Below are positions 37,076 through 44,896 of a stretch of DNA of 64,000 nt, piece after piece. Both the position numbers and the translations under genes were made by a program. The notes under the pieces were generated by a model, which worked only from the letters and a program-made list of their open reading frames with translations, was not told the origin of the DNA and did not search any database. Location of the stretch: positions 124,001 to 188,000 of the forward strand of contig JACQEZ010000019.1 in assembly GCA_016200325.1 (NCBI GenBank), read 5' to 3'. The stretch is from Candidatus Manganitrophaceae bacterium. GTDB lineage: Bacteria > Nitrospirota > Nitrospiria > SBBL01 > Manganitrophaceae. The first letter of the stretch is position 1. Each line of letters opens with the position of its first letter.

Positions 37076-37705
37076 ATGATTCAATTCCAAGCCGAATTTA
37101 AAAAAAACTTGAAACCAAAACCGATACCGGGACTCTCCGACAAACAGCTTAACGACCATTTCGACGTCAAATACAAAGGGTACGTCACCAAATTCAATGA
37201 GATCCAAAAACAGCTGCAAGAGGTGAACAAGAGCAAGGCGAATCCGAACTATAGCGGTGTTCGCGAGCTGCTGGTCGAGCGGCTCTACTGTCACAACTCG
37301 ATCAAGCTCCACGAAGCCTACTGGCAATGCCTCTCCGGCGAGTCCGATCCGCCCGATCAGATCAAGCAGATGATCTCGGAAGATTTCGGCTCCTATGACA
37401 GCTGGAAAGAGGAATTCAAAGCGTGTGGTCTTTCGGCCCGGGGCTGGTCGGTCTGCGCGTTTGATCTCGACAGCGGCCGCATCTTTAATTTCCTCACCGA
37501 CACCCACTCAATCGGCGCCTGGAACGCCACCCCGCTCATGATTATGGACATGTACGAACATGCCTACTACATCGACTACGCCTCGTCGGTCAAGACCTAT
37601 GTCGAAGAGGGCTTTCTTCCGAATATGAGCTGGAACTATGCGGCTCAGGTCATTGAACGATACCGCATCACCGATCTCCGCACCTCTCTGGGAAAAGCGG
37701 CGTAA
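37076..37705 (+). CDS. sodB: Fe/Mn superoxide dismutase
   Basis: A 209-residue SOD with all four metal ligands: His in NDHFDVKYKGYV, His in KLHEAYWQCL, and Asp and His in MDMYEHAYYIDY. The second-sphere Tyr of E. coli SodB (Tyr34) is kept, but the residue at His30 is Lys. The C-terminal helix and WNYAAQVIERY are normal. No signal peptide is present, so it is cytosolic. A good ribosome site (GGGAGG) precedes the ATG, and a strong stem follows the gene. Whether it uses Fe or Mn cannot be told. Confidence 0.92.
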   Translation: MIQFQAEFKKNLKPKPIPGLSDKQLNDHFDVKYKGYVTKFNEIQKQLQEVNKSKANPNYSGVRELLVERLYCHNSIKLHEAYWQCLSGESDPPDQIKQMISEDFGSYDSWKEEFKACGLSARGWSVCAFDLDSGRIFNFLTDTHSIGAWNATPLMIMDMYEHAYYIDYASSVKTYVEEGFLPNMSWNYAAQVIERYRITDLRTSLGKAA

Positions 37706-37732: not shown

Positions 37733-37771
37733 GATGCGGGGTGGGAGAGAAGCAGGCATCCACCCCGCATC
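37733..37771 (+). terminator. Transcription stop after the SOD gene
   Basis: GATGCGGGGTGG (37733-37744) pairs perfectly with 37760-37771. A run of six T follows at 37787, separated from the stem by a short GC-rich stretch, so efficiency is uncertain. Confidence 0.5.
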
Positions 37772-37795
37772 GACCGCCGGGCGCCATTTTTTATA

Positions 37796-37825
37796 TTGAC
37801 GAACAATCCCCCACTTGTGTATTCT
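37796..37825 (+). promoter_or_regulatory. Promoter of the small membrane peptide/Urate_ox_N genes
   Basis: TTGACG (37796-37801) and an extended -10 TGTATTCT (TATTCT at 37820-37825) are 18 bases apart. The next coding sequence starts at 37928. Confidence 0.5.
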
Positions 37826-37927
37826 CAATTTTTAGTTCTTCTTCATCTGAAACCGCCTGTTTGTCGCCGGTTCAGTCCACTCAAAAACCCAATATTACTG
37901 AAGACCTCAGAATCAAGGAGAGACGCA

Positions 37928-38020
37928 ATGAAAAATCCTCTCGATACGCTGACGGGCACCGTGACCGCCGGATTTGTGCTGACGCTGATTCTCTATTTCA
38001 TCGTTCGGGCCATCGTATAA
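37928..38020 (+). CDS. 30-residue single-helix membrane peptide
   Basis: ATG at 37928 follows AAGGAG by seven bases. The peptide begins MKNPLDTLTGTVTAG, has a hydrophobic segment FVLTLILYFIV and ends RAIV. An open frame upstream of this ATG exists but lies over the promoter and is not plausible. It sits 60 bases before a Urate_ox_N-type membrane protein, which suggests a small accessory subunit. No named family is recognised. Strong ribosome site, own promoter and context support a real gene. Confidence 0.6.
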   Translation: MKNPLDTLTGTVTAGFVLTLILYFIVRAIV

Positions 38021-38080
38021 CCCTGTCACCCTGCGACCGGACTGATCACTCTACTGAATAAATGAATGAAAGGAACGAAA

Positions 38081-38587
38081 ATGAACCCAATGGCGCTTGA
38101 GCTCTTCTTTCGGTGGGGACACTTCCTCGCCGGGATTATGTGGATCGGACTTCTTTATTATTTCAATTTTGTCCAAGGGGCATTTATGAAAGCCGCCGGC
38201 CCGGAAGCGAAAGCCGACGCTTCCAAACACCTCATCCCGCGCGCCCTCTTCTTCTTTCGCTGGGCCGCCGCGCTCACCTGGTTCTTCGGAGCGGCGATTC
38301 TCGGCTCCAGAGGGATACTGGGCGATGCGTTCATGCTCCGTGGCGCCGCCGCGATCATCGGAATGGGCGCTTGGCTCGGCACGATCATGCTCTTTAATGT
38401 TTGGGTGATCATCTGGCCGAATCAACAGAAAGTCCTCGGCCTCGTTCAGGCAGCACCCGAGCAAAAGACCAAAGCGGCGCGGATTGCCTTTCTCGCCTCG
38501 CGCACCAACACGATGCTCTCGATCCCGATGCTCTTCTTCATGGCGAGCTCCAGCCACGCGCCGGCGAGCCTCTTCGGCGCAGGTTAA
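38081..38587 (+). CDS. Urate_ox_N-type membrane protein, copy 1
   Basis: A 168-residue protein with about four helices. It resembles the membrane domain of PuuD-type urate hydroxylases (Urate_ox_N), seen as WGHFLAGIMWIGLLYYFNFVQ and FNVWVIIWPNQQKVLGL, but lacks the C-terminal cytochrome c part. The start at 38081 has AAAGGA six bases upstream; the ATG at 38066 is less likely. The next gene is a paralogue, so both may act as a heterodimer. Urate oxidation is doubtful: no purine genes are near, and the conserved His/Trp may instead bind heme. Confidence 0.75.
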   Translation: MNPMALELFFRWGHFLAGIMWIGLLYYFNFVQGAFMKAAGPEAKADASKHLIPRALFFFRWAAALTWFFGAAILGSRGILGDAFMLRGAAAIIGMGAWLGTIMLFNVWVIIWPNQQKVLGLVQAAPEQKTKAARIAFLASRTNTMLSIPMLFFMASSSHAPASLFGAG

Positions 38588-38657
38588 TAATCAGATCGCG
38601 GCGTGACCCTGTGGGAGAAGGGAGATCACTCTTACCCTTCAACTCGTCGGGCATGCC

Positions 38658-39164
38658 ATGGGAACGGAAAGTATGGTCAGTTCGGAAACGATTCTTCCCC
38701 TTCTGTTTCGCTGGATCCATTTTGTCGCCGGGATCACCTGGATCGGCCTGCTCTACTACTTCAACCTCGTCCAGGTCCCCTTCATGAAAGAGACCGACGC
38801 GACGACGAAAGGGGGGGTGGTGTTGAAGCTCGTTCCCCGCGCCCTCTGGTGGTTTCGTTGGTCGGCGCTGGTGACGGTGCTGGCGGGCGTTTTCTTGCTG
38901 ATGACCGGCCGGATCTTCAACACGGCGATCATGATCGGCGGGACCCTCGGCGTGATCATGTTCCTGAATGTCTGGCTGGTGATCTGGCCGAACCAGAAGG
39001 TGGTCATTCGGATGACCGGCGACGCCGTCGCGACCAAAACCGCCCCGGCGCCCGAGATGGCCAAACACGCCCGGATCGCCTACCTCGCCTCCAGAACCAA
39101 TTTTTACCTCTCCTTCCCGATGCTCCTCTTCATGGGGATGTCGGCCCATTTCCCGCAGTTTTAG
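38658..39164 (+). CDS. Urate_ox_N-type membrane protein, copy 2
   Basis: A 168-residue paralogue of the preceding gene, with the same segments: FRWIHFVAGITWIGLLYYFNLVQ region, PRALWWFRW, and FLNVWLVIWPNQKVVIRM. The helices align one to one with copy 1. The gap is 70 bases and contains no gene. Tandem divergence suggests subunits of one complex. The specific function is unknown; see copy 1 for the doubts about urate. Confidence 0.75.
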   Translation: MGTESMVSSETILPLLFRWIHFVAGITWIGLLYYFNLVQVPFMKETDATTKGGVVLKLVPRALWWFRWSALVTVLAGVFLLMTGRIFNTAIMIGGTLGVIMFLNVWLVIWPNQKVVIRMTGDAVATKTAPAPEMAKHARIAYLASRTNFYLSFPMLLFMGMSAHFPQF

Positions 39165-43932: not shown

Positions 43933-44394
43933 ATGGACAAAGTTGAGAGAAACATGCAGTTAATGAAAACGTTGGACGATGCGTGGAACGCCCAAGATTG
44001 GGCGACGTTCGAAAAGCGCCATGCGGAGAAGGTCGCCGTCTACTGGCCCGGCAAGCCGGAGCCGACCCGCGGCCGACATCCGCATGAGGTAGAGTCGATT
44101 GAATTCTTCAAAACCTTTCCCGACAACCACATCGAGAACAATCCATATAAAGTTCTTTTCGGACAAGGCGACTGGACCTGTTCGGTCGCGAAGTTTACCG
44201 GCACCATGAAAGGACCGATGAAGACCCCCAACGGCAACGTCATCCCTCCGACGAATAAAAGATTTGAGGTCGAGTTTTGCACGGTCGCCCATTGGAACGA
44301 CAACGGAGAGATCGTGGAGGAGAAGCTCTTCTATGATTTAGTCGGCTTAATGCAGCAGATCGGTCTGGTCGGAGATAAAGCAAAAGCGGCGTGA
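43933..44394 (+). CDS. SnoaL-like (NTF2-fold) protein, copy 1
   Basis: A 153-residue small alpha-beta barrel protein of the ester cyclase/SnoaL type. Features are the N-terminal LDDAWNAQDWATFEKRHAE, the pocket segment YWPGKPEPTRGRHPHEVES, and FPDNHIENNPYKVLFGQGDW. The C-terminal region has EFCTVAHWNDNGEIVEEKLFYD. It begins a run of small genes and has a good ribosome site (GGGGAGG). It is 40 bases before a paralogue. Substrate unknown; family members are often isomerases, cyclases or ligand-binding proteins. Confidence 0.85.
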   Translation: MDKVERNMQLMKTLDDAWNAQDWATFEKRHAEKVAVYWPGKPEPTRGRHPHEVESIEFFKTFPDNHIENNPYKVLFGQGDWTCSVAKFTGTMKGPMKTPNGNVIPPTNKRFEVEFCTVAHWNDNGEIVEEKLFYDLVGLMQQIGLVGDKAKAA

Positions 44395-44434: not shown

Positions 44435-44896
44435 ATGAGCAGCGTCGATGAGAATCTTGAAATCGTTAGACAGATCGATCGGGCCTGGAACGAACGAGAC
44501 TGGAGCAGCTTCGGGCGGCTTCATGCGGAAGATGTCTTCGTCCGGTTCAGCAACCCGAAGGGGATCACCGGCCGCGTTGCCCATCTCGCCGAGGCGCAGA
44601 ATTTCCTCTCGGCATTCCCCGATCATCAAATCGATTTCCCTTATCTTTATCTTTTCGGAGAAGGAGACCTCGTCTGCTCGGTTTTCAAATCGAGCGGGGT
44701 GCAGTCCGGACCGTGGAAACTCCCCGACGGCCGTCTTATTCCAACCACAGGAAAGCGATTGGAGATGGAAATGAACATCGTCTCCCGAGTGCTGGACGGC
44801 GAGGTCGCCGAGAAGATCGTCTCCTATGACATGCTGGGGCTGCTGACGCGGCTCGGCGTCATCAAGCTGACCGAAGGAACGGTCAAGGCGGCGTAA
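44435..44896 (+). CDS. SnoaL-like (NTF2-fold) protein, copy 2
   Basis: A 153-residue paralogue of the preceding gene with identical length: IDRAWNERDWSSFGRLHAEDV, FPDHQIDFPYLYLFGEGD and a short C-terminal helix. Both end in KAA. AGAGGAG precedes the ATG. It probably arose by tandem duplication and is co-transcribed with copy 1. The function is unknown. Confidence 0.85.
   Translation: MSSVDENLEIVRQIDRAWNERDWSSFGRLHAEDVFVRFSNPKGITGRVAHLAEAQNFLSAFPDHQIDFPYLYLFGEGDLVCSVFKSSGVQSGPWKLPDGRLIPTTGKRLEMEMNIVSRVLDGEVAEKIVSYDMLGLLTRLGVIKLTEGTVKAA

Follow-up and report, generated by a model that had tools for sequence, protein, structure and literature searches.

A 30-residue microprotein of Nitrospirota as the probable detached last transmembrane helix of a short Urate_ox_N protein

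The 64,000-nt stretch analysed here (the window) encodes a 30-residue peptide upstream of two Urate_ox_N genes, A and B. We interpreted this peptide as the last transmembrane helix, now detached, of a short Urate_ox_N (DUF989) protein. To this explanation as a whole, including its inferred steps on helix placement, heme and the fusions in family f6, we assign a probability of about 85%.

Most relatives outside Nitrospirota were single chains of six helices, namely a four-helix core, helix 5 and helix 6. In the lineage of the window, core A and its second copy B would stop after helix 4, helix 5 would be missing, and a separate small gene directly 5' of the core would encode helix 6. The free helix would insert next to the core, in the manner of helix 6 in the single-chain relatives. 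That one helix is a separate 30-residue subunit common to the two cores, and exists in three living states (C-terminal, free and N-terminal), is a more tentative proposal, which we rate somewhat below even odds.

The locus and its parts

The sequence-only reading had described a one-helix peptide with a strong ribosome site before two diverged Urate_ox_N genes. This was confirmed by the coordinates (Table 1), by Pfam, and by an identity of 52% between A and B. The Pfam family Urate_ox_N (PF06181, curated cut-off 26.9) matched A with E 7e-20 (72 bits) and B with E 2e-18 (67.2 bits), and a profile search of the whole genome (4.2 Mb, 20 contigs) found these two proteins as its sole matches. In the genome scan, A and B matched profile positions 7-39 or 7-101, plus 167-246; the best stretches in the Pfam match were 167-241 and 174-242. 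The match was thus restricted to the parts of the profile for helices I-II and V-VI. A and B are without any cysteine, and hence without CXXCH or a C-terminal cytochrome c domain.

Table 1. Features of the peptide-A-B locus, in window coordinates
Feature	Position	Strand	Remarks
30-aa microprotein MKNPLDTLTGTVTAGFVLTLILYFIVRAIV	37928..38020	+	open frame; helix-6 homologue of single-chain Urate_ox_N proteins
AAGGAG, ribosome-binding site of the peptide	37915..37920	+	7 nt 5' of ATG; read from sequence
Promoter-like TTGACG-18-TATTCT	37796..37825	+	consensus match only
Second promoter-like site	37770-37797		consensus match only
Urate_ox_N protein A, 168 aa, four-helix core	38081..38587	+	alternative ATG at 38066
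Urate_ox_N protein B, 168 aa from 38658, four-helix core	38658..39164	+	clade other than that of A

Relatives suggested the ATG at 38673 as the start of B. Position 37796, given earlier as the start, is the first TTG of the open frame of the peptide and lies in the promoter-like hexamer; it is not the gene start. The promoter claimed earlier received modest backing, in that two sigma-70-like sites, scoring 9/12 each, were present where a scan of 1651 bases would be expected to give 0.7.

Two other features of the window were noted. A Fe/Mn superoxide dismutase gene lies directly upstream (37076-37705); its N-terminal half scored 24.4 bits, under the Pfam cut-off of 27. Two further small proteins of 153 aa, diverged from each other and encoded in tandem, are found at 43933-44394 and 44435-44896, and are presumably of the ester-cyclase/SnoaL type.

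The peptide is a conserved gene

The peptide was present in all six genus members examined, with few replacements. The codon differences in 15 pairs of genus members comprised 140 synonymous and 71 non-synonymous changes, and dN/dS in six pairs was 0.04-0.20. The peptide is under purifying selection. An alignment of 18 sequences showed M1, N3, P4, L5, D6, G10, G15, L18, T19, L22 and V26 to be invariant. In-frame conservation in the relatives included the ribosome site, and most of their peptides were preceded by a G/A-rich site resembling AGGAG or GGAG.

A profile built from the same alignment was searched against 146 genomes of the class, with matches in 41, and against 295 of the phylum, with matches in 48. 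Together these gave 62 Nitrospirota genomes, every one of which was inspected. In 60 of them, the peptide was a free frame that shared its strand with an A-type core and lay 5' of it. The gap between the two, counted from where the profile match ends to where the core alignment begins, was 19-192 nt in these 60 loci. As for the remaining two, the peptide was at a contig end in G120 (L167) and was fused to the core in G126 (L165). In one of the 60 (G030, L013), a one-base shift interrupts the peptide frame while the A-type gene next to it is intact; the shift may be an assembly error or a loss.

The converse was also examined. Among the 98 close genomes, all 30 with an A-type homologue (at least 61% identity; the next match was 55%) also carried the peptide. 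No frame loss was seen in the five relatives of the genus that keep both larger genes, all of which retained the peptide. The linkage to A-type cores and the low dN/dS support the peptide as a genuine partner of the larger genes, conserved along with them. It matched no Pfam family at E≤1; profiles of proteins this short are weak.

The peptide is homologous to helix 6

For comparison, 79 loci outside or beside Nitrospirota were collected by tblastn. The proteins extracted by motif from 72 of them were 216-245 aa long, except one of 170 aa (L051). The lengths of cores adjoining free peptides fit four helices, against 216-245 aa for the one-chain forms. The C-terminal end of one of the latter (L111) reads TKVPLDSVKGTLWVGFLLTAILFLITLALT, which is peptide-like. 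Its one-chain model showed six helices, with helix 6 at residues 209-230 (pLDDT 95.4, pTM 0.91). The one-chain form also occurs in Methylotuvimicrobium buryatense 5G (L064), a relative that can be cultivated.

When the peptide profile was run against 834 neighbouring frames, the C-termini of Urate_ox_N proteins came out on top, and the first unrelated frame appeared at E 0.57. Against 21,797 six-frame stretches from the 79 loci, 50 matches were obtained at E<0.05. The C-termini of single-chain Urate_ox_N proteins accounted for 49, and the other was a free peptide, in L051, located downstream of its core. In hhalign, the peptide matched helix 6 at 96.8% (score 54.7); helices 1-5 gave at most 0.17% (scores ≤6.1). 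These profile comparisons show homology between the peptide and the last helix of Urate_ox_N proteins. An AlphaFold2 model of a read-through chain from the peptide into A placed the peptide with low confidence (pLDDT about 55 for the peptide, pTM 0.68), from an input alignment that lacked rows with the peptide.

The sequence-only reading had pointed to the small helices that serve as extra subunits of heme-copper or bd-type complexes. An accessory subunit that evolved independently, like CydX of cytochrome bd oxidase, was therefore considered. The size, single helix and operon position of the peptide resemble CydX, and CydA was a weak structural match (Z about 7) for the one-chain model. This origin is contradicted by the homology of the peptide to the last helix of the very family to which its partners belong. 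Moreover, these partners are Urate_ox_N genes rather than cydAB, and the peptide is without a Pfam match. We consider it improbable.

A leader frame that controls the translation of A, with no action as a protein, would also be short, have its own ribosome site, and lie about 20-190 nt 5' of A, as observed. Such a frame would not account for the amino-acid conservation (dN/dS 0.04-0.20), the homology to a structural helix, the L051 copy downstream of its core, or the fusion to the core in G126. These make the leader reading very improbable, and we retained the detached helix as the explanation.

Distribution of one-chain, split and core-only forms

A tree of 56 cores, picked by a motif demanding the helix-1 histidine, was unrooted in practice. 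Its A clade comprised Nitrospirota cores with free peptides. The one-chain proteins of six helices formed a clade of their own (support 82/75), and a B clade (support 96/87) held L051 and B of the window. Further members of the B clade were the core-only proteins of family f10 (six genomes, of which the tree includes three) and the proteins of families f6 and f14, which carry the helix fused at the N-terminus. On this tree, the ancestral state may be either split or one-chain.

In the six f10 genomes and in G007, a B-clade core was present and no peptide was detectable anywhere in the genome. This showed that the helix can be lost, and that not every core needs it. Urate_ox_N homologues were found in 91 of the 98 related genomes. 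Two genus members carried a third, strongly diverged tandem copy (L118, 11388-11897; and G001, L006).

An N-terminal version of the helix

All 15 genomes examined of family f6 (L130-L132, L196-L207), which is probably Nitrospira, had an extra N-terminal helix, MKFLE(D/N/S)P.QT.G.GFAL. The N-terminus of the G126 protein (family f14), MNPLDNPNQTIGLGVVLTIVLAGVF, begins with MNPLDNPNQT and matched the peptide profile with E 3e-4. In hhalign, the peptide matched the f6 and G126 N-termini together at 65.5% (score 31). Without G126, the f6 N-terminal helix gave 15.9% (score 21.9) against the peptide and 12.2% (score 20.8) against helix 6. Other helices, run as controls, scored 8.7 or less. From the hhalign and G126 profile scores, the shift to the N-terminus was supported, yet more weakly than the homology to helix 6.

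We interpreted f6 as an apparent circular permutation, in which a diverged version of the peptide is fused to the N-terminus of the core. The topology of every helix would be retained in this fusion. By reasoning, removal of helix 5 and placement of helix 6 before helix 1 leave the orientation of each helix unchanged.

The core as a putative heme oxidoreductase

Of 109 loci, all had His14 and 108 had His159, with no motif filter applied; the exception (L073) was an alignment that ends short. N29, R60, N106, Q115, R141 and N143 were also conserved in the core. An N-out topology has been predicted for PuuD in the part of the report consulted (Doniselli et al. 2015, PMC4562309), and loops 1 and 3 of the core, as read from the sequences, are positively charged. 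Together these would place both histidines towards the periplasm, and N29, R60, N106, Q115, R141 and N143 in the cytosolic half.

Compared by hhalign with CopD-like proteins, the core gave 94.8% over 147 columns, using 17 Nitrospirota sequences that included some misread frames. The CopD identity was by Pfam; one of the two members scanned had a direct Urate_ox_N match, of 16 bits and below the cut-off. The two invariant histidines and the CopD-like core suggest a heme-b membrane oxidoreductase. In the proposed mechanism, the core would act as a CopD-like oxidoreductase with a b-type heme. This heme would be held near the periplasmic side by two invariant histidines of A as ligands, His14 in helix 1 and His159 at the end of helix 4. 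The cytosolic polar cluster N29, R60, N106, R141 and N143 would form the substrate site, and electrons would leave to a periplasmic acceptor.

A gene for a monoheme cytochrome c lipoprotein adjoined the core in 17 of the 79 loci outside Nitrospirota, on the same strand in 10 and on the opposite strand in 7. This cytochrome c was not found at E 1e-6 in 94 of the 98 Nitrospiria genomes, including that of the window, and the other four gave weak matches. With the invariant histidines and the CopD-like family, the adjoining cytochrome c genes elsewhere make a heme redox complex a plausible reading of the assembly.

Foldseek returned no structure match at E≤0.001. The VIA matches, among those listed, included cytochrome b6 (Z about 9.4) and CydA, both inside the helical-bundle background. 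A sequence search of PDB chains gave two nanobodies only (E 0.085 and 0.41).

No neighbour was conserved across the Nitrospirota families. A protein of 578-616 aa near the core recurred in eight loci, seven of them listed as f13, and a search gave no identity for it. A GroEL-like gene neighboured the core in 18 of the 79 other loci. In f6 and f10 (L130, L133), the Urate_ox_N gene lies between malate dehydrogenase-like and NuoF-like genes, followed by ferredoxin-like frames. The identities of the GroEL-like, f6 and f10 neighbours were read from the sequence.

We also considered whether the core is a HemJ-type protoporphyrinogen oxidase that would otherwise be missing. The topology is similar, the helix-1 histidine is as in HemJ-like proteins, and core homologues occur in 91 of the 98 genomes. 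However, 93 of the 98 genomes have a HemY-type oxidase, so that nothing is missing, and hhalign of the core against both HemJ found gave only 0.3%. With HemJ over the cut-off in 2 of the 98 genomes, this candidate was rejected as extremely unlikely.

Urate is an unlikely substrate

If A and B were urate hydroxylases (PuuD), the trio would degrade purines. A and B do belong to the same Pfam family, and RefSeq-style records label distant short members 'urate hydroxylase PuuD'. On the other hand, the profile match is partial, and the proteins have no cysteine and thus no CXXCH. OHCU decarboxylase was found in none of the 98 genomes, that of the window included, against 4 of 14 control genomes. 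The earlier view that this may not be a purine enzyme agreed with the missing cytochrome c domain and with the missing decarboxylase. On such sequence evidence, urate is unlikely to be the substrate, and we regard a purine-degrading trio as highly unlikely.

Distant Urate_ox_N proteins of 167-168 aa were seen on two alphaproteobacterial plasmids (L216, 2501-3007, NZ_CP073765.1; L217, 2474-2977, NZ_CP029178.1), with the common gene order pqqA-pqqD-pqqE-[Urate_ox_N]-serC. No pqqB or pqqC was found within the stretch inspected. This is an unusual PQQ-like cofactor cluster, which may use the Urate_ox_N family as an oxidase.

Significance and comparison with known systems

The detached helix accounts for a class of unannotated microproteins: some would be displaced pieces of a neighbouring protein, and not regulators or added subunits. 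A membrane protein found in single-chain, split and apparently permuted forms is useful for testing the assembly of separately encoded helices. If true, the three-state set shows in living genomes how a membrane protein is circularly permuted in nature, with a free helix as the intermediate. The label 'urate hydroxylase PuuD' is misleading for short proteins whose homologues are as widespread in the related genomes as found here (91 of 98).

The four-helix short form has been known since 2015. In the part of that report consulted, short DUF989 proteins are described as four-helix cores that correspond to PuuD helices I, II, V and VI, with no cytochrome c and a gene context different from that of puuD (Doniselli et al. 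2015, PMC4562309). A and B fit this description. The same part makes no mention of six-helix single chains, a separate last helix, or a helix moved to the N-terminus. A literature search of open-licence papers found no publication on a free or moved helix. As far as this search shows, the free helix gene, its helix-6 origin and the apparent N-terminal refusion are new.

PuuD, the cytochrome c urate oxidase of Agrobacterium and Pseudomonas, has a membrane domain homologous to A and B. It has eight helices and a fused cytochrome c, and is encoded among uricolysis genes, none of which is true of A and B. The cytochrome c genes adjoining the core in 17 of the 79 outside loci recall its fused cytochrome c. 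The CopD-like four-helix proteins (PF05425) share profile similarity along helices 1-4 and the same helix-1 histidine with the core. They belong to another Pfam family, however, and the gene context of the core gives no hint of a copper-linked function.

CydX, in the part of its description consulted, is a single-helix small membrane protein encoded beside a large partner (PMC4325964), and in these respects the peptide is alike. The difference lies in origin: CydX is an added subunit, whereas the peptide would be a part of the partner domain that has turned into a separate gene.
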